Positions 9,822 through 26,320 of a DNA stretch of 27,289 bases are shown piece after piece. The notes beneath the pieces were generated by a model that worked only from the letters and a program-made list of their open reading frames with translations, ran no database searches and was not told where the DNA came from. How positions within the stretch are numbered: the stretch's first letter is position 1; every line of letters starts with the position of its first letter. A program made the position numbers and the translations under genes. The stretch is from Neolecta irregularis DAH-3. Taxonomy: Eukaryota; Ascomycota; Neolectomycetes; Neolectales; Neolectaceae. The stretch is from contig LXFE01000391.1 in the NCBI GenBank assembly GCA_001929475.1, positions 1 through 27,289 of the forward strand, written 5' to 3'.

Positions 9822-11651
9822 TCATTTGTGCTCAAAAATACTGCTCAAGTAGAAAGGGTTGTTTCCGTCTTTGAAGATCAGCAAAGGCTTTCGCTTAGCT
9901 AAATCCAAGATCACTCTCGCAAATTCAGAATTCGCCCAAGAAAACCAAGATCTTGTAAACATCCCTAAGTTATTGACATTTACTGACTCATGAATTAATC
10001 CCAGTCCATAAGTACTTTCCTTGATAAAATTCAAGAGCTCAAGGATTTCGTTATCATTATCAGTTGTCGAGATCTGTTGAAGTAAACTCATCGGCCATGC
10101 ATTCCTTAGGCCAACATGAGGGCCGCCGATGCCCTTAAAAACGGATCCCTGAAGATAATAAGGATTTCCAGTTTTCGAGAGGATAGCTTTTCGAGTATTC
10201 TGGTAGACTTGATCTTCTTTTTTCAGGAACCCTAGACGTGGCAGGGAGAGCAAGCTGGGAATGTTGGCATCATCTGCAAGATTAAACTGGATACTAGGAA
10301 ACAATACCCATGATTATTCGCCCTCCATAGCCATCAACTTCATAAGCAAAAATCTTTCCAAAGACAGGATGTTCGAAAATCGCATGTTCTTCAATCCCTT
10401 TTCGAACACTATTACTAGTTTCCTGAGCAAATGTGGCAAGTTCATTCTTTCCAATCTTACTTAACAATTGGCTTATTTTCTCCAGTTGGACAGCCATCAT
10501 CGCGTTCACCGGGATGAGAAATGGAAGGATCGTAGAATCATCGCTGGGTCGAAAGGAGCTTTTTATCAACGAGGTACCCGTATTGACAGGATATCCAATT
10601 CCGTTCAGCGCGAGAGTTTCTGTTGCAAGAGTTGTCGTTCGTTCAAACAAATATTCCGGAAAATTTGGCGAATTGTCACTTGTAAAAGTTGGCATTTGTT
10701 GATCCCTGATAACATCAAAAATACTCTCGATAGCTCTAATCCAAGCATCATCCATGAATTTTGTGTCTCTGGTCGCTGTATAATATTCGTTGGAGAGATC
10801 GAGGAATGACGCAAGACTATCCAGTTCGTATTTACATTCAAAAACGACTTTCCGATTTGGCGGCGGATACACACGGTCAGCGTAGCCACTTCCCGCAGGT
10901 GGAATATTACTTTCCGGCGGTGCATTAAAGGCGTTACAGTATGGTGATGATATAATATAATCTGCCTAAAAGTCAATCTTGTCCTAGTAAAGCTGCGTAC
11001 TTGCATTCGGATTGCACCCAAGACTAGCTTTCTCAGATTCTCGTCATAGTGCAATAGGTCAATATACGGTTGAAGTTGATTTGCCGAATCTCGTAGCCAC
11101 TGGGCATTACTTTCCAGTCAGTCATTCCAACCCCCTTGAGACATTACATGTCGCCCTAAGGTGTGAATTTAACTACAAGGCAGCAGCAATCATACTGTAG
11201 TGATAAATGCCTTTGGATCATCACCCAAGACATACCATCTGATAGTAGTATCCAAAGTGTTGGGAAAACAATTCTCAAACATTCTCGCAAGGTCATTATC
11301 CTTCATTCGTGACGTAACCTCTTCAATTACCTTCTCAACTGCGGGTGACTGGAATGTCCGGCACTCTTTCTTCGGTCGTTGAAAAGCCAGCTGTAATGGA
11401 CCTTATATCAGTCCAATGTAACGGGTTTGACTACCGTTCGAATAAGGGAGATGACGAATACCAGCGTATTGACTATATGGTGGGCAGCGAGCTCCAGGGT
11501 AAGGAGCAGAAACATCCTGATATTGGGATATACGAGAAGGAGGAGGCCAGTTGTCGAAATTGTATTCATTTAAATTATCGTTCGATTTGAATGTAAGAAG
11601 CATGAAAATCACGAACAATATCAACATCCCGACTCTTTGCCACTTGCGCAT
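9822..11651 (-). CDS. GH125 exo-alpha-1,6-mannosidase-like protein
   Basis: GH125 (formerly DUF1237) enzymes are metal-independent inverting exo-alpha-1,6-mannosidases. Minus-strand exons: 11651-11435, 11401-11196, 11155-11148, 11109-11001, 10965-10308, 10273-9822, giving 549 residues. A hydrophobic segment at residues 9-21 (MLILFVIFMLLTF) after a basic start suggests a type II signal anchor, so a Golgi or secretory location is likely. Family blocks in order are RCPPYSQYAGIRHLPYSNG, FQRPKKECRTF, FPNTLDTTIRW, TGDINAQWLRDSANQLQPY, DDANIPSLLSLP, GIGGPHVG, and LIHESVNVNNLGMFTRSWFS. The Asp of WLRDS and the Glu of HES are the likely catalytic acids by analogy with bacterial GH125. Exon 3 is only 8 nt. 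Introns are 33-40 nt. Substrate specificity cannot be read from the sequence. Confidence 0.9.
11148..11155 (-). other. 8-nt micro-exon in the GH125 gene
   Basis: Between a 40-nt intron (11195-11156) and a 38-nt intron (11147-11110) lie just eight bases, GGCGACAT on the minus strand. They supply G-D and the first two bases of I in the conserved TGDINAQWLRDS block. Both flanking introns have GT and AG ends and keep frame. Confidence 0.82.
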
Positions 11652-12605: not shown

Positions 12606-14080
12606 TCAAGCGGATTCCTCATCAAAATAATCCCATAACGTATCAAACATTTCTGAATCTTCGCTTTTAATTCCTGTAGATATCCCTTCCGCAGTCAAAG
12701 GTGACACATTGGTATCCTTCCAGTCATTCCAGAGCGTATGTAGTTCATTCTCAGCAGTAGTTTCTTCCAATATAACAGCGAATATAGCGTCAAGGCCACC
12801 TGCTCCAGGGACGCCACAGCCAAGCACGCCATTTATTTGCCCACAGACATCGAGCAAAGATGTCTGTTCGGGCGGTTCAATGGGTGTGCCAGATAATTCG
12901 CCTATTGTTCGGAGATATCGACGGTTGTTCTGTTGGTTAGTGATTGTTCATTGAATATTTATCTACTTGAAAATGCCTCCGTATTTCGTCGAATAGATGA
13001 CAAAAGGGAATATTCGTGACCGATTTGCCCTCTGAGATTTCTTTCACGCTTTGATCGTAGTCGATGGGAGACTCCCCGATGGCCTGAGTCAATTTCTCAA
13101 ATGCCTTAATTAACCGGCTATTCGATTCGCCGAGATTTGTCCACAAGGTTTCTGCCATGTCGCGAGCCTCTGCCTTCCAAGCCAAAACCTTTCTAACCAT
13201 GCTCGGTGTCTCAGATCCAGCATCAACGTCTGCCATAACAACCCTCACCCCTCGAGGCAGAGAAATACTCTCAATCTCCGAGTCCCAAGTTGAGTTGACC
13301 ATCAATTTAACCTGATCCGCAAATTCTTGACCATTCATTTCTCGAGAGCTTGGAAAATTGGATCGCGAGGATGTGCTGTACACACAACTCCCATAGGTAG
13401 CAGCAGCAACGTCGAAACCACTACCAATTTTGCCTTGTGCAGCACAATGTGCCAGCTGGGCACAATTATTTATGATGCGTTTCCCCTGATTTGACTCAAG
13501 ATTGATTGAATCATTGAAATGAGTGAGAAGAGCGCCGGTAAGACTAGTGATAAGAGCAGCCGAAGATCCAAGGCCAGTTTTATTGACCTGTGATAGCGTG
13601 TGATCCAAGGGGCTGAACTGAGGGAGAGATTTGCGGTACGTATAGGCATCTTCACCTTGTGGTACCGCACGAGAATAATATTCGTTATCAGCGTAGATGG
13701 AAATTGTAAGATCGGAAGACTTGAACGGCGAGAGATATGCAAAAACGTGTTCTATTGCTTGCTGTGCAAACGCATTCTTGGTTACTCCTGATCTAGAATG
13801 ATGAGGGTGGATACTCAGCACAACTTTGATACGTCTGTTCTATGGTCACAGAGGAATCGTCACCGAGGGAGCACGTATACACCCATTGCGCATCTTTAAA
13901 CTGTGGAGATTTGACTATTACGGTGAAAATCGATGACTGTGGTCCGGATGAGGGTTGTAGAACGGCGTATATACGGGCAGACAGAGCTACAACGAGACTC
14001 TTATAGGCCGAATGGAGTACGAGGTAACCGCCAGCTACAAGAGCTTTTCCTGGCGCAGACACCACGGTAAGTCCAGACAT
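12606..14080 (-). CDS. ERG8: Phosphomevalonate kinase (Erg8)
   Basis: Erg8 phosphorylates mevalonate-5-phosphate to the diphosphate, feeding ergosterol and isoprenoid synthesis. Minus-strand exons: 14080-13833, 13792-12967, 12929-12606, giving 465 residues (yeast 451). The three GHMP-kinase motifs are present: SAPGKALVAGGYLVL near the N-terminus, KTGLGSSAALITSL at about 154-167 (ATP-binding loop), and GVPGAGGLDAIF near 394. The substrate-side segment around SPQFKDAQWVY is typical of fungal Erg8. The introns (40 and 37 nt) are confirmed by continuity through TSGVTKNAFAQQAIEHV and FQ|NNRRYLRTIGELSG. The frame stays open upstream to an ATG at 14350, but that 90-residue extension is basic and unlike the family, so the start at 14080 is preferred. 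Confidence 0.94.
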
Positions 14081-14382
14081 ATTCTGGGCCTGAATAACGC
14101 CAAAAAGATGAGTTTTTGTATGGTAGAGTATGGGGAGCCGCAGTTCATAAAAACGGGTTTCGGGACTCCGAAGTTTGCTAATCGGGTAAACCCGGCGTGG
14201 CTTCTGTATATAGCGAAAACTTTTACTTTCACTGCGTAAACCAACAAAATCACCGTACCTCGTCCAACTCTTTCTACCAATTTTGTCTTCTTTCCTCTTT
14301 CTACCTAGGCGAAGGTCTCTCTGATCTATATGGTTTTGTTTGAAAGCCATGCTGATTGCTGTTTAGGCCTGTTGACTTGGGC
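14081..14382. promoter_or_regulatory. Bidirectional promoter region between ERG8 and the PPR gene
   Basis: These 302 bp separate the divergent start codons of ERG8 (14080, minus) and the PPR gene (14383, plus). Frames are open on both strands but show no family similarity. No single element can be named. Confidence 0.4.
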
Positions 14383-17300
14383 ATGGTTTACATAAAAGGA
14401 TCCGCGTTCGCTAATTTTGTCCGCAATGGCTTCCAAAAACATCTTTTCGCCGGATCGTCGCAGCCTGTTTCACCCGGAACGTCATATTTCACCTCAAATG
14501 TCGCCACTATCGGGGCTCAGTTAAAACTGCAGCTAGGCACAACCCAGTCCCATCCTACCAGCGGCAGTCAGTCGTTTTTTGGTAGTCAGGGAACTGGACA
14601 TACTGCTCAGCACGGCCAGCCTTTTTGGGCTACTTCAAATCCCCTACTCCCAGCTTGTACTTTGGACGAAAGGAACAAAGACCGAGAGTCAAGGCTATCT
14701 TCTATTAATCAACTCACCTTCACTTCTACCTTAGCCGGAAGAGTCCCTTCGTTTGCTCGAGAGTATTCAACACAAACATCTGTAACAAATACACTCACAT
14801 CCCCATTTCCTACTTCCCCGGAGCCTTCATTACCGGAAGATTCCAGGGCTATTGACTCGGACATTGATAATCCTACATTGACCGAAAATGATCTTCTCAT
14901 TGGCAAGTTCAGAAAATGGACGCGAGAAGGCAGTCTTGACCTTGTCATCGATGAGTACATTGTCATGAAAGCAGAAGGCCGCAAAATTCCAAAGGAGGTC
15001 TACAATAATGTCATCCATACACTCTGCAAAGTGCGTAAAGTTAGGTATTCTGAAGGCTCCTTAAGGCTTGCAATGTCAGTACTCGAGGATATGGAAGCCA
15101 ACGGCATCCAGCCAGACGGACGGTCCTATGCCCCGTTGATCAGTATCTATTGTGATCGAGATACAGGTCTTTATTCGGCACTTGAATCCTTGGACAATTC
15201 GCCCGATACAAATTCAGTACATTTCGAGCGTCGAAAGAGCGTTATCAGTTATAATATCTCAAAGGAGGGAATTAATTCGGCGCTGCGTCTATTTAATGCC
15301 GCGATCGCAAAGGGTGTTAAGCTTCCGATCTATGTATTCAACAGTCTCTTGAAGATAACCTCCAAAGCGGGCTGCATCGATGATATGATTACGATCTACT
15401 CTATTCTCGAAAATTCTAGCGTAGAAGCGGACGTACGGACCTATCAGATTTTAATAATGACATTCGGAGATGCCAATGACATTAAGTCAGCAGTCCTTAT
15501 CTATGAAGACTACAAGAAACGCGTCAACTGTTTACCTTCTCATGATGAATCATGGATTTATAACGCTTTGTTATATGCCTATTTTGCATGTAAAGACCCG
15601 ACTGGTGCAATCAAATTCTTCAAGAAAGTATATGAAGCGAACCCTTCGGCCGTCAAAACTGTTACATTGACTCTCATCTGTCAAGGTCTAAGCCAAAATG
15701 GCGATCATGAAGGGGCATATCTTTGGTTGGCTCGAATGATCACCGAGGAAAAAACAGAGAATCCTTCACTGATCATCTTGAGCCGACTCCTCCAAAATGC
15801 GGTTAATGATGGAAAATTAGAAATGGCACATAAACTGTTTGATCTTACCCCTCATATTAAGATCATCAACTCGCCGGGTGAAGGTTTCAGTCTCTATTCA
15901 AAGGCGTGCTTTCAACAGGGCAAGATCGAACGAGCTAAACAAGTTATCGAGTATACATCAGAGACAACATATTATCATACAGCTGATGTAGTCTCCGACG
16001 TCGTTCTAACACTTGCGAAGACCAAGCCCGATATTGCAATTTCCACGCTGGAGAAGGCTACTCGCGCTGCCATTCGAAGAAGTGGTAGTTTGACCTCGAC
16101 TCGATCATTGTATTTTCAACTAGGCGCTACTTTACTGGACGCACTTCGAGAACAATCTGACCTTACTAGTACAAGATTTAATAGAATTGTCGAATCGTTA
16201 CGTTGGTTCAGAAAAGAGACTAACGTTGATATCTCACTCTCTACAGCGAGAGCATTGTGTTATCTCTTTGAGCACAAAGATTTTCCCTCGTGCCTATTCA
16301 TGTATCGTCAAACTGTGGATTGGTTACTATTCGATTTCGAGCTTTTGAATCAAAGCAACCAACTACATGGCCTGTTAAGCAACACTTTTGAAGCTTGTCT
16401 CTTTGCGATCATGGGTCAGGGAGTGGTTATCATTCAGCTATTCCATAATTTCATCTCACAGTTTGTCGCCTCAACAGATAATCCAAAATTGATCCAAGCC
16501 TGGGAAAAATATCTCCATCCAGACGATGAACTCGTAAACGAATATCGCCCTGTTCGTAGCACATCTTTGCATCAAATTCCCGAGGATGCGTTGAAGAATA
16601 GGATAAAGACCCTTGGCAGTCTTGACTTTAGAGATGATGTCAATCATCGCTTCTTGTTCGCACCTGATGCTGCAAATCTGGTTACTTCGTTCATGGAATG
16701 GAGAGCAGCTAGCCAAAGAAACGCTAGAATCCATCCAGTCACTTACTTCAAACTCATGGAACGGCTAGCAAAGATTGGACGATTTGATCATGTTAGAGAG
16801 GTCTATGAACTGGCTAAAATTGGAATACCAACAGTCACCCACCCAGATTCGCTGCCGTTGATATGGGCATATGTGGAAAATTCCCTGCTGATTGCGGCGG
16901 CGTACGAAGGCGACTATCCCAGAACCCGCACACATCATCAGAATCTTATTAATTCGGGGTTCGCTCCAAACGCTAATGCATTCGCTGCTTGCATTCTGAA
17001 TCTCAAAGAATCAGGATTGAAAGACGAAGCTTCTGCTGCATTGAAATATCTCAACGAAGCTCTCTCTTTAGGTGTTTGTCCCAATACTTACCTTTACAAT
17101 GTCCTTATGTCCAAACTCGCCAAAGCTCGTCGTCTTGCTGATGTCATTGATTGTCTGGAAAAGATGCGAATGAATGGTATTCCGCCAAATCATATTACTT
17201 ACGGCGTTATTATCAACGTTTGCTGCCGAACGGATAACGAAGCTTTGGCAAGTCAATTCTTTACCGAGATGGATTCGATACAAAGCTACAAACACCGAGT

Positions 17301-17991
17301 CGCGCCGTATAACACCATGATGCAATATTACTCTCAAACAAAGCGAAACCGTCCGATGGTTCTTTATTATTACAATAGGATGCTTGCAAAGAAATGTTCT
17401 CCCACTGCGTTTTCATTCAAATTACTCCTCGAAGCGTACACTGCTCTGGAACCATTCGATTTCCCCACCGCCGAAATTCTCATGAATGAGATGGTTTCTG
17501 TTCATGGAATCAAACTCGAATCACAACATTATGCTGTCATTCTTCATTCAAAGGGTTGTGTTCTTAAGGACTTTGAAGGCGCAATGGCATATTACGATGC
17601 TATTGTGGATTTTAAAATCCCTATGGATGGCATCATGTATCAAGCCCTCTTCGAAATCTGTGTCGCGAATCGCCGGTTTGACAAAGTTGAAGAATTTCTC
17701 CAAAGGATGTCTACAGATAAAGTTTCGATGACCCCATATATTGCAAATATTCTGATTCACGCCTGGACAGTCCAGGGTGACATTAACAAGGCTCGAAATA
17801 TTTACGATCATCTGGCGATGACGAAAGAACCTTCGACCTACGAAGCTATGGCAAGAGCATATGTTGCTGTTGGCAATCATGATGCGGCTAAGAGTATTTT
17901 GGATGATATGGCAACTCGTCAGTTCCCACTGGCCGTCATGTCTACCGTTTCTGATCTTCTTACCGGGGCAGAAACAAGCAAGGTTTCTTAG
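14383..17991 (+). CDS. Large mitochondrial-type PPR protein
   Basis: This is an uninterrupted 1202-residue frame. The first in-frame ATG is at 14383; the frame is open a little further upstream (to 14356) without another ATG. The N-terminus is rich in basic and hydroxylated residues, with few acids for about 60 residues, as in mitochondrial presequences. Two clusters of pentatricopeptide helices follow: one at about 200-480 (for example VFNSLLKITSKAGCIDDMIT), the other at about 780-1190 (TYLYNVLMSKLAKARRLADV, ITYGVIINVCCRTDNEALAS). A non-repeat spacer lies between. Fungal PPR proteins of this size bind organellar RNA and act in stability or translation, as Pet309/Cya5 do for COX1. That specific role is inference here. 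It has no introns, although most neighbours are heavily split. Confidence 0.88.
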   Translation: MVYIKGSAFANFVRNGFQKHLFAGSSQPVSPGTSYFTSNVATIGAQLKLQLGTTQSHPTSGSQSFFGSQGTGHTAQHGQPFWATSNPLLPACTLDERNKDRESRLSSINQLTFTSTLAGRVPSFAREYSTQTSVTNTLTSPFPTSPEPSLPEDSRAIDSDIDNPTLTENDLLIGKFRKWTREGSLDLVIDEYIVMKAEGRKIPKEVYNNVIHTLCKVRKVRYSEGSLRLAMSVLEDMEANGIQPDGRSYAPLISIYCDRDTGLYSALESLDNSPDTNSVHFERRKSVISYNISKEGINSALRLFNAAIAKGVKLPIYVFNSLLKITSKAGCIDDMITIYSILENSSVEADVRTYQILIMTFGDANDIKSAVLIYEDYKKRVNCLPSHDESWIYNALLYAYFACKDPTGAIKFFKKVYEANPSAVKTVTLTLICQGLSQNGDHEGAYLWLARMITEEKTENPSLIILSRLLQNAVNDGKLEMAHKLFDLTPHIKIINSPGEGFSLYSKACFQQGKIERAKQVIEYTSETTYYHTADVVSDVVLTLAKTKPDIAISTLEKATRAAIRRSGSLTSTRSLYFQLGATLLDALREQSDLTSTRFNRIVESLRWFRKETNVDISLSTARALCYLFEHKDFPSCLFMYRQTVDWLLFDFELLNQSNQLHGLLSNTFEACLFAIMGQGVVIIQLFHNFISQFVASTDNPKLIQAWEKYLHPDDELVNEYRPVRSTSLHQIPEDALKNRIKTLGSLDFRDDVNHRFLFAPDAANLVTSFMEWRAASQRNARIHPVTYFKLMERLAKIGRFDHVREVYELAKIGIPTVTHPDSLPLIWAYVENSLLIAAAYEGDYPRTRTHHQNLINSGFAPNANAFAACILNLKESGLKDEASAALKYLNEALSLGVCPNTYLYNVLMSKLAKARRLADVIDCLEKMRMNGIPPNHITYGVIINVCCRTDNEALASQFFTEMDSIQSYKHRVAPYNTMMQYYSQTKRNRPMVLYYYNRMLAKKCSPTAFSFKLLLEAYTALEPFDFPTAEILMNEMVSVHGIKLESQHYAVILHSKGCVLKDFEGAMAYYDAIVDFKIPMDGIMYQALFEICVANRRFDKVEEFLQRMSTDKVSMTPYIANILIHAWTVQGDINKARNIYDHLAMTKEPSTYEAMARAYVAVGNHDAAKSILDDMATRQFPLAVMSTVSDLLTGAETSKVS

Positions 17992-18168: not shown

Positions 18169-18945
18169 TTACGGACTTAATCTCTTCAATGTCCATTCAG
18201 AGTGGTTTCCATCTACACTTAGTTGTCTCTCGTATATAAATCTATCATGCAATCTATTATCTCGTCCCTGCCAAAATTCAATCTCATCGGGAATAATTCG
18301 CATTCCTCCCCAGAAAGGCGGTATGGGAATGTAGGCCATTCCCGCAAATTTGTTCTCCAACTCGGAGACTTTGGCATCTAATTCATCTCGGGAATGAAGG
18401 AGAGTGCTCTGAGCAGAGGCCCATGCTCCAATCCTAGATTTTCGCGGTCTGGTATCAAAGTACTCCTTTGATTCCTCCTGTGATAAATGTTCTGTGACGC
18501 CTTCAACACGGACTTGTCTCTGTAAGGGCTCCCACCAAAATGTCAGAGCGGCTCTCGGATTCGATTTTATATCTCTTGCTTTCTTACTTGTTTCCCAATT
18601 CGAGTAGAATACAAAGCCCTTGGAGTCGAGTTGTTTCAGTAGGACTGTACGGGATGAAACACGGCCGCTTGGAAGTTGGGATGTAGAAAGCGTAAGTGCC
18701 TCTGGAGAGGTGATCATCTCTGACGAGGAAGCCTGGTTGAACCATCGGTGAAATATCTGAAATGGGGTTTTCGGATTGAGTTGAGATTCAGAGAGAGAGC
18801 CTTTAGTGTATTGATACCGATCTGGGGCGAAAATAACTTTCTCCGGAGATTGCGGCAAAGTGGACATTCTATATGCTATCGTGATTTTCCTACTGCGGTT
18901 GACTGAAGAAACGAGTTTGGTGGTGAAGTAACTAGCTATTCTCAT
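18169..18945 (-). CDS. PDX3: Pyridoxamine 5'-phosphate oxidase (Pdx3)
   Basis: This FMN enzyme oxidises pyridoxine/pyridoxamine 5'-phosphate to pyridoxal 5'-phosphate. It is a single intronless frame. From the ATG at 18945 it is 258 residues. A second ATG at 18867 (MSTLPQSPEKV) gives 232, close to yeast Pdx3 (228). The extra 26 residues are basic, rich in S/T and free of acids, and could be a mitochondrial presequence. The choice between the two starts cannot be made from sequence. FMN- and PLP-binding blocks are clear: GRVSSRTVLLKQLDSKGFVF, FYSNWETSKKARD, WWEPLQRQVRVEG, ASAQST, and the C-terminal EFWQGRDNRLHDR with the catalytic R and H. An AT run at 18969-19000 lies just upstream. Confidence 0.94.
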   Translation of the reverse strand: MRIASYFTTKLVSSVNRSRKITIAYRMSTLPQSPEKVIFAPDRYQYTKGSLSESQLNPKTPFQIFHRWFNQASSSEMITSPEALTLSTSQLPSGRVSSRTVLLKQLDSKGFVFYSNWETSKKARDIKSNPRAALTFWWEPLQRQVRVEGVTEHLSQEESKEYFDTRPRKSRIGAWASAQSTLLHSRDELDAKVSELENKFAGMAYIPIPPFWGGMRIIPDEIEFWQGRDNRLHDRFIYERQLSVDGNHSEWTLKRLSP

Positions 18946-18968
18946 AAATGAAAACGCGCCATCCTGCT

Positions 18969-19000
18969 TATATATATACATATATTATATATATTTAAAT
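18969..19000. promoter_or_regulatory. AT run upstream of PDX3, possible TATA region
   Basis: A 32-bp stretch made almost wholly of TA steps lies 24-55 bp upstream of the PDX3 ATG at 18945. It could act as a TATA-type element. If so, transcription would start near 18945 and favour the internal ATG at 18867. Confidence 0.35.
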
Positions 19001-19883: not shown

Positions 19884-20987
19884 CTACAAGTCGGAAGAAT
19901 GTTCTGCATCGATATCATCGTCATCGTCCATTTTAACGCCTTTGTTGCCTTCAAGACTTTCGAGCGACGCTACAACTGTCCCGATAATTCGTTTTACACG
20001 ATCGTTTAAGATTGTTCGAGGGGGATATTCCTCATCTGTAAAGTCGGTTAGGCCTGAATTTAATTAGAGAAAATTATCAATGATCAATAACCTCGAGACG
20101 CGGCACCAGCACGTCTAGCTCTAGCTTCTTGTTCGTATCGTTGTTGTATGGCTCGATCTATACGCATGGCTGATTGTCAAAAGAAAAGTCCTCAAAGATG
20201 GTCTTACGAATGGCTAAAGTTACTCGAACAAGTTGGACCGTCAGTCGCATTCTTCCTACCACATCGAAATATGACAACGATCGTAGATGTCTTTGAACGC
20301 GATTCACACGGTGTAATTCTACAAGGAAAAGTACTGAATAAACTTGGGTAGCTGATCCATATTAGATGGACATGTGCAAATAAAGATACCCGTGACAAGC
20401 TCCCTCAATTTCTTGAATGAGTTTTCCACGCCGTCAATTGTATCTTCAGAAATAGCCAACCCAGGGTACGCACGCCCTAGTGTTTCGAAAGCATTTCTGA
20501 TTACTGAAAAGTCTCCATTTATAAATTCGTGAATAATGGCTGAGACAACGCCTTGGAGAGTATGTTCTCCTGCCAGAAAGTTTCGACTCAATGAGGGATT
20601 GAAAGAGTTGCTCTTTGCAGCTTTATCATAGTTGAGGCGAGAGGTTGGTACAGAGAGTATCTGATATGCGAATGAAACTTTTTGGAATGCGGATGTAGAT
20701 CTCGAGTTATTTTGAAATTTGTCCGGATGTATCAGACGACATTTCTTTTGATCAGTCAGCGATATATTTAACCACATACGTCAAGGTATGCTCTCCGCAA
20801 CTCTTCGCCGCTACAATTCCGTTTTACGTCCAAAAGTATATAAAGATCGTCCTCCTTGAGAATAGCTAAGCGTCAGCTGAAACTTGGGATAAAACGAACA
20901 TTCCACTATCTTTAATTTTTCTTGTGTCGATTTAGACTTCCATGGAGTAGCAGCTGCGCGCGGATTTGGAGCTTTAGTTGATGACAT
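19884..20987 (-). CDS. J-domain protein, fungal family of unassigned role
   Basis: Minus-strand exons: 20987-20900, 20865-20780, 20744-20390, 20351-20208, 20169-20092, 20053-19884, giving 306 residues. Residues about 32-95 form a J domain: DDLYILLDVKRNCSGEELRR, then CRLIHPDKF with the HPD motif that stimulates Hsp70 ATPase, then AFQKVSFAYQILSVPTSRLN. A conserved helical region follows (GVVSAIIHEFINGDFSVIRN, LSYFDVVGRMRLTVQLVRVT, IPMRIDRAIQQRYEQEARAR), ending in an acidic tail with a DDDDD run. I recall this helical region as conserved among fungal J-proteins, especially basidiomycete ones, but cannot name a function. No signal peptide or membrane segment is evident. Introns are 34-38 nt. The gene is divergent from FIG4 across 126 bp. 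Confidence 0.82.
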
Positions 20988-21113: not shown

Positions 21114-24100
21114 ATGAATTATTTTACCCGGTTTGCATTGTACGAAACAAAGTCTCGCCTCTATCTTGTTGCTACTTCTCATGACGAATTGCACTGTAAG
21201 CTACTCAAGATTGAACGCGATGCAGAACCCCCACAACTCGGATTCGTCGAAGATGCCACGCTTTATACATATGAACAGCTGGCATCAATTCTGGCTGCTA
21301 TTGAGTCGGGGAGCAAGAGCGTGGTTGGTGGTTTCAGGAGGGTGTTGAACGCTTTTGCAATCCTGGGATTTATCCGTATGTCCATACCGACGAGTGGAAG
21401 TTGTTCATTCCAAAGAATTTACTTCCGGTTGGTACATTTCAGTCATAACAAAGCGAAAAACAGTCGCACTTCTCGGGGGTTACTATCTCTACCACATCGA
21501 AGCAACAGAGTTAATTCCGGTATCTTCCTCAAATGCAGGAAGATCGTCGTTCAAGGGGTCTGAAGAATCGAGGTGGATCGCATTTCCAAAGGCTACAATT
21601 TCTAACGGTTCAGATTCGTCAGTATCTTCCAAAACCTCGATCTTTCGAAAACTTTCTATTATAGTTATTCGTATGATATCACTCAAACTCTGCAACACAA
21701 TATTCTCCGTCTTAGAGCCAACCCGAATGCATTACCAGAATATAGTGACATGTTTGTCTGGAATCACTTTCTTATGCAACCTGCACAAGCCCTGCAGAAT
21801 CCTCAGGATTGGGTTCAACCAATCATCCACGGATTCATTGACCAAGCAAGTTGGTCATTCTGTCTTGGAGCCCAATTAATAAATCAGATGTCTCGGTGTA
21901 CGGTCGATCAGTCTTTATAACTGTGATCGCGCGAAGATCCCGCTACTTTGCCGGTGCTCGTTTTCTCAAACGAGGAGTCAATGATAAAGGTTTTGTTGCT
22001 AACGATGTCGAGACGGAACAGATTGTCGCAGATATGCAAACGACGAGCTTCCACGCACCTGGAGGCGCTCTATTCGCCAATCCCAATTATTCTTCTTATG
22101 TCCAGCATCGAGGAAGTATACCGTTATACTGGACGCAAGAGGGCACAAATATGACTCCAAAACCCCCGATTACCTGTATGCAAATTGGATTTAGCGTCTA
22201 CTAACAAAAGTAACCATTGCAGATCCGTTCTACCAGGCTGCCGCTTTACACTTTGATAATATGTTTGAAAGATACGGGGCTCCGTGTATTGTCTTGAACC
22301 TGGTCAAGGTATCAAGGTCATGTAGCAAAAAGATATCAAAACTACTAGTCCAGAGAGCGGATTCCACGAGAGTCGTTGCTATTATATGAATTCACCAAAC
22401 TTCTTGAATATCTCAATCAGTTTCTACCTCAAGATAGGAAAATCCAACATATTGCCTGGGATATGTCGAGAGCTTCAAAAGGGTATAATAATATATATGT
22501 GGCTGTCTTTCAAAGCAAGTCATTCGAGCGAAGTGATCGATACACTCGAAGATATAAGTCAACGGGTCTTGCAGACCACCGGTTTCTTTTACAGTGGACA
22601 AAGCCAAGCCTCGGATTATAACACGGGCCCAAGTATTCAATCCGGGGTGTGTCGAATGAATTGTATCGACTGCCTGGACCGGACCAATGCTGCTCAATTT
22701 GTCATTGGAAAACGTGCTCTTGGTTATCAAGTTTGTGTCTTGAGTTGATTAAGTTATTTAACGACATAGCTTCATGCTCTAGGAGTTATAAGTGAGCCAA
22801 AAATTAAATATGATTCGGACGCTGTAAACCTGTTGACTGAGTTGTACCATGATCACGGAGATACAATTGCATTGCAATACGGCGGATCGCACCTGGTAAA
22901 CACTATGGAAACCTATCGGAAAATCAATCAGGCAGGGTTCTCATAAAACCTTGGGGCACTAATGATTCAGTGGAGTAGTCATACGCGAGATATGATCGAA
23001 AGCATACGGCGCTTTTATAACAATTCGTTCTTGGGTATTTCTTGTTCACACCTCAATTGAAAGTATAGATAGTCAGCGTCAAGAAGCAATCAATTTGTTT
23101 CTTGGGAATTACGTTTTTGTTCACGGACAGCCAAAGATTTGGGAAATGCCTTCAGATCATCACCTCCATAACGACAGTTTAAAGTTCAAGGGTCTGCGTA
23201 GACAGTATCGTTCTGGTCCAGTACCCCTCTGATGGCGTAGTTACCAGCAATGGTGGACGCCGGCTAATCTCGAGAAGCCTGTCGTTGCACCACAAGGAAG
23301 CGTGTCGAAAGATGAACAACAGAAATTGATTGAAGCATACTGGACAGAGTATTACAGACCTCGTGTCTTATCATCCCTTTGCAAGGTTTTTGCTTATAAT
23401 GTTAATTCGACATTGCGTTATATTCCTGTGTATGAAAATACTTGTTGCGTATCTAATGAGCTGCGACAACAGACGGAATCGATTGGACCTCGGCCCTTTC
23501 AGACCTCATGCTTCAATTGAGAAAGATAGGCCCTCGAGCGGCGAGAAAAGACGGTTTACACCGGGTGATAGGTATGTTTCCAGTGTAGACGAATTTTACA
23601 AACTAGTCGTAAAATCCGTCTTTCACTGCATAGATGGCTGCCACATTCTCAGACAAAGGCTCGAAATATGGAAATCAGAAGTCATCCCGAGGTTTCATCT
23701 GAGAAAGAAGTAGTCGTTGTTCCTCAGCGGACAATGGAGGGTTTCGTTTCATCGTTGCTGAATCCTGTTGTTACTATGTCCGAGATGGCAGAGTATGAGC
23801 AGTAACGACTTCCCTTTCAAGGTTCTGCCGACAGACTAGATATATCACGCATCCACAACTACTTCCGCTTACCTCCTCTACGGATCTAGCTACAGCCCAT
23901 CCAGAATATTCACCATATGTCAATGAACTTTTCAAAGAAGGATCACATCAGGAAGATTTGACCTTGTTTGAAAAGTACGTGGATATGTCTGAGAAGCCTA
24001 TGCAGATGCAAGGCTCGTTAAATTCGCTTTGCGAGCTCGAGGAGAAGCGAAGAACTGCATATGCAGGATGGATCATTGGCAAAACTTTGGGTACGAAGCT

Positions 24101-24245: not shown

Positions 24246-24728
24246 ATGCCGCCGCCACAGAGATCATCTGGGGGAAAAGGTCTGGGAAAGGGGTTTCCGC
24301 AGAAACGGCACCGAAAAATTGTTAAAGTATTGAACCCAATTCTCAGTTCTGACGAATCACAGGACGCTATTTTTGGTATTTCGAAACCAGACATTCGGTT
24401 GGGCTTTTTTTTGGCTATTAATTGATTCAAGACGGATGGCACGGAGAGGAGGTGTCAAGCGAATCTCTGCAGGAATCTACAATGAAGCCCGAAAGGCGAT
24501 GCGTCAATTCTTGAAAGAGGTGTTTTTTTTCCTTGGTGGCAGTTTTATTAATCAACAGGTTCTTCATGATTGTACCATCTTTGTTGACCATTCGTCTCGA
24601 AAAACTATCACCGTTCGAGATGTTATCTATGCATTAAAGGTATTTCTATATGTATCATGATTGACAATTGCTAGCGTCGGGGACGTCCCATCTATGGGTT
24701 TGACCCGGACGTCACAAAAGCCTCATAG
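24246..24728 (+). CDS. Highly divergent histone H4 variant
   Basis: Exons: 24246-24326, 24363-24397, 24432-24519, 24559-24639, 24675-24728, with introns of 36, 34, 39 and 35 nt. The product is 112 residues (canonical H4 is 103 with Met). From KRHRK to YGF it aligns gap-free with canonical H4 over 85 positions, with about 49 identities by hand count. The DNA-contact block IRRMARRGGVKRIS and the C-terminal helix region DVIYALKRRGRPIYGF are kept. The alpha-2 helix (AGIYNEARKAMRQFLKEV) and the following loop and helix (LHDCTIFVDHSS) are heavily changed. In the tail, lysines matching K8, K12, K16 and K20 remain (GGKGLGKGFPQKRHRK, one residue longer between K12 and K16), but the SGRGK start is replaced by PPPQRSS. 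The C-terminus ends DPDVTKAS instead of GG. The gene follows FIG4 by 55 bp on the same strand. An H4 variant, not the bulk H4, is the likely role. Confidence 0.9.
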
Positions 24729-24826: not shown

Positions 24827-26320
24827 TTATCTTGATAGCAAACTTTCTAGCTGTGGTTCCGCCTGGACTAATGCAATGATATCAGATTGAAGATCATTGC
24901 TGCATACAGTCTTTAGTAGCCGTGCGATTTCAATCAACTTTTGGCGAATTTGAGAAACCTGCTCAGAGTCTTGTTGCGATAAATTTCGAAAACATATAGA
25001 AATTGCTTTCAGTATTTTTGCGTGGTGATAATCTAGTCTCGGCCAGCACTTTGTACAAATCGTCAAGAGACATTGAACGCTTGAGGTGAGGTTTGATAGA
25101 TCATGATGTGCCAGAGGGTGTTGAAGTTGATCTGCAAGGATCTGGAGTGTGTTCTTGAATCAATAGAGGTATTTGATAACAGGTACCTTTAAATGCTTGA
25201 CATGATAAATCCCAGTCACTTGGACCAATTCATTCAACCAGCGAATAAGAGTGCAGATAATCTTGAGATATTCTCCCGCAAAAGCAACGCCTCTCTCGAT
25301 ACCCTCTCGATAAACCTGATCCAATAACTTTGCTCGACTCTGAATGTCATCCGGAAACCGAATTGCTGCAATTTGAAATAGACCGGCTAGTGCAACGTCG
25401 AGCAGTTCCGCAGAGTCGTCTTCAGGTGTAATTGTAGGGAGATACGTCAAGCAAACCATCAACGACTGCCAAAATAAATCTGCAAGCCCGCTTTTTTGGA
25501 CAATTGTTGGGTCAACGCGTTTCAGCACGACCAACAATATTTCACACCCTCGGATTTTAAAAGTGACAGAGATGTCTTGCAGCATTGTCACAACAGGAGG
25601 GATGATTAATGGCCATTGAGACACCATTTCTTCCGTCTGCAAGTCAGCTCGAGGCACTGAAACAAATACCGGTAAATTCCGTATAGTCCATTCAAGAATG
25701 GTGATAGTCTCAGCGTGAGCCTTCCAAGGATATTTAATATCCCGGTCTTGAGCATAAACGTATTCGGGGGCTGATTTTCGAGGGTAGGGATGAAGTCGTC
25801 CATGGTCTGTAATCTTGGAATTTTTAAGAAACCGCGGTTTGAGTTTATCCTGAAGAATAGCGGTGTATACGAAATTCTCGATATTATTGTTTTGCAGGAT
25901 TGTATTTGCGAGTTTCGTTGATACTGGAGTAGTCCACGGATCCTTATCTCGAGTATACGATGCTAGTGCGACGAACAAGTCTAATTTTATGTCTCTTTGT
26001 AATTCCAGTGGATATTTTTCCAACACAGCCTGTATGAATTCCAATATCTTTTCAGCTCGTGCCGAAAAGGCTTTCTCTGGCTCATGATCGACGACTACCA
26101 AGTAAGCCTATATCAGCAATATTCGCACCTTGGTAGAGTTTATCCTTGCCAAAAGATGATAAAGGTTTCAACAAGGGCACAGTTTTTTGAATTATTTGGT
26201 TCAGAAACTTGCTGGAAGGAAGCTGCATCGTAAATATACATTACATGGTACATATACTGGAGAAAGTCCGTTCTGGAGCTGATCAAGTAGACTTGGAATC
26301 AAATCGAATTCATCGGGCAT
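24827..26320 (-). CDS. TTI2: Tel2-interacting protein Tti2
   Basis: Tti2 is a HEAT-type alpha-solenoid subunit of the TTT complex (Tel2-Tti1-Tti2), which with Hsp90 stabilises the PIKK kinases TOR, ATM, ATR and others. Minus-strand exons: 26320-26258, 26222-26129, 26094-25187, 25141-24827, giving 459 residues. The recognisable core is the block KYPWKAHAETITILEWTIRN, then VSQWPLIIPPVVTMLQDISV, KIRGCEILLVVLKRVDPTIV and LADLFWQSLMVCLTYLPTIT. This is the pattern of the Tti2 family (former DUF2454). The rest is helical with no other domain. Introns are 35, 34 and 45 nt. The start codon is 45 bp from the CCA1 stop upstream, leaving almost no room for a promoter of its own. Confidence 0.83.

Follow-up and report, generated by a model that had tools for sequence, protein, structure and literature searches.

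Few proteins vary as little as histone H4, and H4 variants are uncommon. In 2024, Flipphi et al. (PMC10878826) reported an H4 variant family of ascomycetes under the name H4E. A literature search on fungal H4 variants found, among the papers listed, this one paper devoted to the family, with no function reported. According to it, H4E occurs throughout Pezizomycotina and in Taphrina, Saitoella complicata, Neolecta and Glomeromycota, and is reported missing from Penicillium, Ophiostomatales, Botryosphaeriales and Saccharomycotina. Here, a divergent H4 gene is analysed at positions 24246-24728 of a 27,289-nucleotide stretch of Neolecta irregularis DAH-3 (contig LXFE01000391.1), which is referred to as the window. 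This gene almost certainly encodes the fungus's H4E/H4v histone variant.

The Neurospora crassa variant hH4v (Hays et al. 2002, as cited in PMC6703697 and PMC10878826) is treated as an H4E orthologue in the H4E paper, in which no stable phylogeny was obtained and Taphrinomycotina H4E were not reliably placed. A typical H4E gene carries a phase-2 first intron, a phase-1 second intron 16 nucleotides (nt) before a phase-2 third intron, an 88-nt exon and phase-0 introns, and the Taphrinomycotina genes share only some of the intron positions (PMC10878826). The genes next to H4E in Eurotiomycetes and Dothideomycetes encode dynein heavy chain and svf1. The H4E of Aspergillus nidulans (hheA) is nuclear, binds H3 in bimolecular fluorescence complementation (BiFC) and occurs at a low protein level, and its transcript exceeds the hhfA transcript under nitrogen starvation at 37 C (PMC10878826).

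Gene structure and the encoded protein

The gene model was deduced from the DNA and is compared below with P0001, a JGI metagenome protein that is the closest among the matches listed (94% identical, E 4e-63, 7 differences in 111 residues).

24246..24326, forward strand: exon 1, divergent N-terminal tail and core start (MPPPQRSSGGKGLGKGFPQKRHRKIVK), in agreement with P0001
24327..24362, forward strand: intron 1, 36 nt, phase 0, no stop, multiple of three
24363..24397, forward strand: exon 2, 35 nt
24398..24431, forward strand: intron 2, 34 nt, phase 2 like the third intron (i3) of the H4E model, within the codon of canonical R35
24432..24519, forward strand: exon 3, 88 nt, ARRGGVKRIS DNA-contact loop and beginning of alpha-2
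24520..24558, forward strand: intron 3, 39 nt, phase 0, no stop, multiple of three
24559..24639, forward strand: exon 4, 81 nt, remainder of alpha-2, L2 and alpha-3
24640..24674, forward strand: intron 4, 35 nt, phase 0, separating canonical K91 from R92
24675..24728, forward strand: exon 5, end of the core (RRGRPIYGF) containing the H4E signature Pro96, followed by DPDVTKAS and stop

The joined exons form an open frame of 339 nt without a frameshift, encoding 112 residues and a stop. All four introns follow GT...AG, and their lengths agree with the 34-39 nt given by an earlier, sequence-only reading of this DNA. Branch-like motifs were recognized by eye in introns 1 to 4 (CTGAC, TTAAT, TTAAT and TTGAC, respectively). 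P0001 runs uninterrupted over all four predicted junctions, and the contig carrying it may be a transcript. Retention of intron 1 or 3 would add 12 or 13 residues with the frame kept. Introns 1 and 3 were rejected as coding sequence, as the residues they would add are absent from P0001 and would interrupt the core, in one case within alpha-2. Likewise, a 5' splice site of intron 1 at 24321 was rejected because the core would be two residues shorter, whereas with the site at 24327 the core has no gap and agrees with P0001.

The predicted protein aligns without gaps over the 85-residue H4 core, with 49/85 residues identical to human-type H4, the count reached by hand in the sequence-only reading, and 50/85 to the canonical H4 of the same genome. 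By region, with helix and region limits that we assumed, identity to the latter was 10/14 in residues 16-29, 9/12 in alpha-1, 6/7 in L1, 9/28 in alpha-2, 3/5 in L2, 8/11 in alpha-3 and 5/8 in residues 93-100. In the sequence-only reading, the alpha-2 and alpha-3 faces towards H3 and H2B were described as changing most; this stood for alpha-2, but alpha-3 is largely kept, as are the H2B-facing residues. On what we take to be the list of these contacts, D68, H75, Y88, K91 and R92 are retained and Y72 is replaced by F.

Other features named in the sequence-only reading were found as described. The DNA-contact loop keeps ARRGGVKRIS in full, the equivalents of K8, K12, K16 and K20 are present in the N-terminal tail, the SGRGK start is absent, one extra residue precedes K16, and the C-terminal extension reads DPDVTKAS. 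The tails are longer than in canonical H4 (three more residues before K16; eight after YGF versus two). Solved H4 chains match the protein with a best E of 1.9e-34, and with the E values of the protein matches given above and below this shows that the resemblance to H4 is not accidental. Pfam matches to CENP-T_C, TAF and Histone were rejected as an identity, the CENP-T gene of the genome being probably located on another contig (C198, 100 bits); N. crassa P0059, a relative discussed below, falls below the Pfam cut-off for both families matched.

The genome assembly searched comprises 8,961,725 bases in 363 contigs. Two further H4 genes (C213 and C300) were found, encoding an identical canonical protein of 103 residues with coding sequences that differ at 60/312 nt; the gene at 24246-24728 is therefore the variant. 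It stands beside canonical H4 and does not represent the usual H4 of this lineage. The reading as an H4 variant was thus borne out, and the concern that all H4 copies might look alike was not. The canonical protein has the DNA-contact loop, the YGF end and K8/K12/K16/K20 in common with the variant, but 35/85 core residues differ and it ends in YGFGG with Thr96. Intron positions differ as well: in both canonical genes, K44 and R45 are separated by a phase-0 intron that is absent from the variant gene, and C213 has another after 7 nt. A second variant H4 was not found among the eight matches of P0001 to the genome, three of which fell in the variant gene, four in the two canonical genes and one, weak, on C91 (E 0.037).

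The C300 canonical H4 gene is divergent from an H3 gene. The H3 genes comprise two canonical ones (C297 and C300) and one CENP-A-like gene (C249), while H2A and H2B are represented by one divergent pair on C362. In an exon-by-exon search in which few candidates were scored, no dedicated H3 partner was found beyond these three genes, and no dedicated H2A partner beyond the one H2A gene, which the H2A.Z query also matched. The CENP-A-like H3 (L013, G000:C249:933-1277), labelled so by reading its sequence, is the only divergent H3 found and has a probable intron inside the histone fold.

Relationship to the H4E family

A protein search with the variant yielded 1809 proteins at E <= 0.001, the best 120 of which were examined. 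Next to P0001 among the matches listed were Saitoella coloradoensis (P0002) and S. complicata (P0003), with 74% identity over 82% of the query (E 2.9e-42), followed by many Pezizomycotina proteins including N. crassa P0059. The Saitoella proteins have RRGGVKRISAGIY and GRPIYGFDPD in common with the window protein but carry a four-residue insertion in the N-terminal tail that it lacks. P0059 lies on the H4E side of the tree and is the presumed orthologue of the window protein, although it has 163 residues with longer tails and a core identity of 54/85. Judging by species and sequence, we take P0059 to be hH4v, and P0003 and P0059 to be the proteins meant in the H4E paper.

The H4E set comprised 105 sequences including the query, all drawn from matches to the query and thus sampled one-sidedly; none of the sequences in the trees is named Glomeromycota or Taphrina. 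The partial P0006 was excluded from counts and trees, and 16 sequences were set aside as non-H4E by their core identity to canonical H4 and the residues after YGF. For P0057, P0062, P0090, P0098 and P0113, with 57-61/85 against canonical H4 (45-63/85 in the H4E sequences), the YGFG end decided. These five formed their own branch on the canonical side of the first tree (100/99) and are perhaps another divergent H4 group.

In the first tree, built over 85 columns from 41 hand-picked H4E sequences of the 105 and 19 others, the H4E split was supported by 99/98, with the bootstrap not fully settled and 26/55 inner branches open. The query, P0001 and the two Saitoella sequences grouped together (96/91). 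In the second tree, all 105 H4E sequences and the same 19 others kept the split with a value of 93 in the Shimodaira-Hasegawa-like approximate likelihood ratio test, obtained by a quick method, not starred and with twelve long sequences flagged. The approximately unbiased (AU) test gave weaker results. Forcing the four Taphrinomycotina-type sequences together with the fungus's own canonical H4 was 32.5 log units worse (p 0.031), and forcing them with four canonical-type sequences, namely the own H4, P0072 and two PDB chains that we assume to be fungal, was 31.5 log units worse (p 0.087). Protein matches and trees thus point to a probable orthologue of the Neurospora variant, a question left undecided by the sequence-only reading, with the AU test as a reserve.

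Besides the grouping in the trees, the window gene corresponds to H4E in that a divergent H4 coexists with two canonical H4 genes of identical protein and in its longer N- and C-terminal tails. Its phase-2 intron, 88-nt exon and phase-0 intron were compared with the H4E model by spacing and phase and match it in both. The typical 5' introns (phase-2 first and phase-1 second) are not found in the window gene; since Taphrinomycotina share only some intron positions, these introns are not family-defining there. Similarly, dynein/svf1 synteny is reported only for the two classes named above and is therefore not family-defining; neither gene gave a Pfam match among the 20/33 window open reading frames (ORFs) scanned, and the immediate neighbour encodes Tti2. 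The A. nidulans hheA likewise stands beside two canonical H4 genes, shows the phase-2/88-nt/phase-0 pattern and has longer tails and a kept core, whereas it has seven introns and dynein/svf1 neighbours compared with four introns and Tti2 here. The core insertion of 5-16 residues in Eurotiomycete H4E is absent from the window protein (PMC10878826).

Several points weigh against this assignment. At p 0.087, the AU test does not clearly reject a separate origin of the four Taphrinomycotina-type sequences. The typical H4E model lacks an intron corresponding to intron 1, which is in phase 0 and lies 35 nt upstream of intron 2, and exon 4, with 81 nt, agrees with the 63+18 of the H4E paper's text and not with the 60+18 of its legend (PMC10878826). 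An AlphaFold monomer of P0001 from 38 sequences was poor (mean predicted local distance difference test score 73.5, predicted template modelling score (pTM) 0.48), with alpha-1 and alpha-2 fused into one helix. Foldseek matched this model best to nucleosomal H4 chains at query template modelling (TM) scores of 0.42-0.47 and root-mean-square deviations of 10-22. It was set aside as evidence for its low pTM and TM and adds nothing beyond the sequence.

One alternative is that canonical H4 was duplicated independently in this lineage and that the copy came to look like H4E by convergence. The unreliable placement of Taphrinomycotina H4E in the published work (PMC10878826), the AU result of 0.087 and intron 1 favour it, but the tree splits of 99/98 and 93, the shared A57, C69, V83, P96, I97 and D after YGF across the core, the 88-nt exon with matching phases and the 32.5 log units by which grouping with the own canonical H4 is worse (AU p 0.031) make it improbable.

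Slightly less probable again is that the protein serves specifically as partner of CENP-A, the centromeric H3, and not of ordinary H3. In its favour, a single divergent H3 was found in the genome, and this one is CENP-A-like. Against it, H4E is reported missing from the four groups listed at the outset, and such fungi presumably have a CENP-A. Moreover, A. nidulans H4E binds ordinary H3 in BiFC, its deletion causes no growth or sexual phenotype, and the signal of overexpressed H4E-GFP coincides across the nucleus with that of a linker-histone marker (PMC10878826). A decaying pseudogene or mis-assembled fragment is scarcely credible: introns 1 and 3 are stop-free and the splice pattern is deduced from DNA, but four GT-AG introns join exons without stop or frameshift, P0001 from another source is 94% identical over all four junctions, and synonymous change against the own canonical H4 is saturated with a nonsynonymous rate (dN) of 0.33-0.35. 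An H4E/H4v variant gene is therefore very likely the best explanation overall.

In a profile search (best 120 of 7986 scored), none of the matches listed was clearly a new member from Taphrinomycotina or Glomeromycota. Long animal and plant H4-like proteins came first, and 4/5 of the new ones inspected carry the ARRGGVKRIS stretch twice, suggesting that they are partly tandem or fused H4. In a search for the DNA of other H4E genes, genome contigs gave two canonical-type H4 loci in bacterial bins (L029 and L030), and viral contigs gave none. A near-canonical H4 (P0107, 69/85 core) on a 3.9-kb contig is labelled as coming from a Promethearchaeia metagenome-assembled genome; it and the bacterial-bin loci are probably eukaryotic contamination.

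Apart from the variant gene, the following features were assigned in the window.

25163..26101, reverse strand: Tti2 family protein (PF10521, E 1.7e-57), convergent with the H4 variant gene
21355..21876, forward strand: upstream ORF with a weak SacI-homology match (Syja_N, PF02383, E 5.2e-5, below the Pfam cut-off)
10297-10872, reverse strand: GH125 alpha-mannosidase ORF
12940-13821, reverse strand: GHMP kinase ORF
18172-18981, reverse strand: pyridoxamine-phosphate oxidase ORF
20322-20777, reverse strand: DnaJ-domain ORF

The best named match of the pyridoxamine-phosphate oxidase, listed after the window's own protein, was also Saitoella coloradoensis, with 60% over 86%. With two window proteins pointing to Saitoella, the fungus is probably related to Taphrinomycotina. 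On the forward strand, 14356-17988 forms a single uninterrupted ORF of 1211 residues with PPR and TPR repeats, in contrast to the four tiny introns of the H4 variant gene.

Signature residues and a proposed effect on H2A docking

Among the H4E sequences, Pro96 occurred in 105/105 including the query, compared with 2/16 of the others, and it played no part in sorting the sequences. Ile97 was found in 99/105 (7/16 of the others), Cys69 in 92/105 (0/16), Ala57 in 85/105 (5/16), Val/Ile83 in 98/105 (2/16) and Ile/Leu87 in 101/105 (8/16). Asp right after YGF occurred in 104/105 and 3/16, but as the residues after YGF were used in sorting, it is no independent marker. On the 124-sequence tree, Pro96 accounts for three changes and has thus also arisen elsewhere than in H4E. 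A term search of the main text of the H4E paper (PMC10878826) found neither 'proline' nor 'docking'; as it covered 12 of the 63 places matched, there may be a remark worded 'Pro' or 'P'. A literature search on H4 T96 and the docking domain found no 'H4 T96' among the papers listed.

In eukaryotes, according to a published account (PMC11500106), the C-terminal tail of H4 meets the 'bowl' of the H2A docking domain in a short beta-sheet that ties H2A-H2B to the tetramer, and H2B and H4 also pack via aromatic rings. Position 88, Tyr in canonical H4, was Phe/His in 91/105 of the H4E sequences and Tyr in 12, while position 75 was His in 53 and Tyr in 50 of 105; the window protein keeps Tyr88 and His75. 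Residue 96 presumably lies within the beta-strand facing the H2A docking domain, and proline lacks a backbone NH.

The window H4E would be expected to fold as H4 with its DNA contacts kept and, because no divergent H3 other than the CENP-A-like gene was found, to pair with ordinary H3. Under particular conditions it may be incorporated into a minor fraction of nucleosomes or tetrasomes. The family-wide change of Thr96 to Pro and the acidic D-P-D extension would fall in the part of H4 that, in the canonical protein, joins the H2A docking domain; as proline offers no NH and the acidic extension follows the strand, the joint with H2A should weaken, and H4E-H3 tetrasomes or nucleosomes would hold H2A-H2B more loosely. 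Such a loosened tethering through Pro96 and the extension is proposed tentatively. Speaking against it, the listed H2B-facing residues are kept in the window protein, deletion or overexpression of A. nidulans H4E gave no phenotype (PMC10878826), and Pro96 might be tolerated without docking loss. The term 'replacement-type' used in the sequence-only reading is not supported by the A. nidulans orthologue, which could not replace H4.1 and whose deletion was without phenotype (PMC10878826).

A wider proposal, in which H4E would be an old ascomycete histone predating the split of Pezizomycotina and Taphrinomycotina, with fixed Pro96 and an acidic extension that disable H2A docking in nucleosomes or tetrasomes that shed H2A-H2B easily, is more doubtful still. 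If true, easy shedding of H2A-H2B would explain why H4E binds H3 yet fails to replace canonical H4. What is known here is the H4E family; what is new is another member of it, not a new kind, and the added signature residues. With this member the family probably extends to a new lineage, whose assembly is small (8.96 Mb). A57, C69, V/I83, P96, I97 and D after YGF provide a testable signature list for the effect of such an H4 on the nucleosome.
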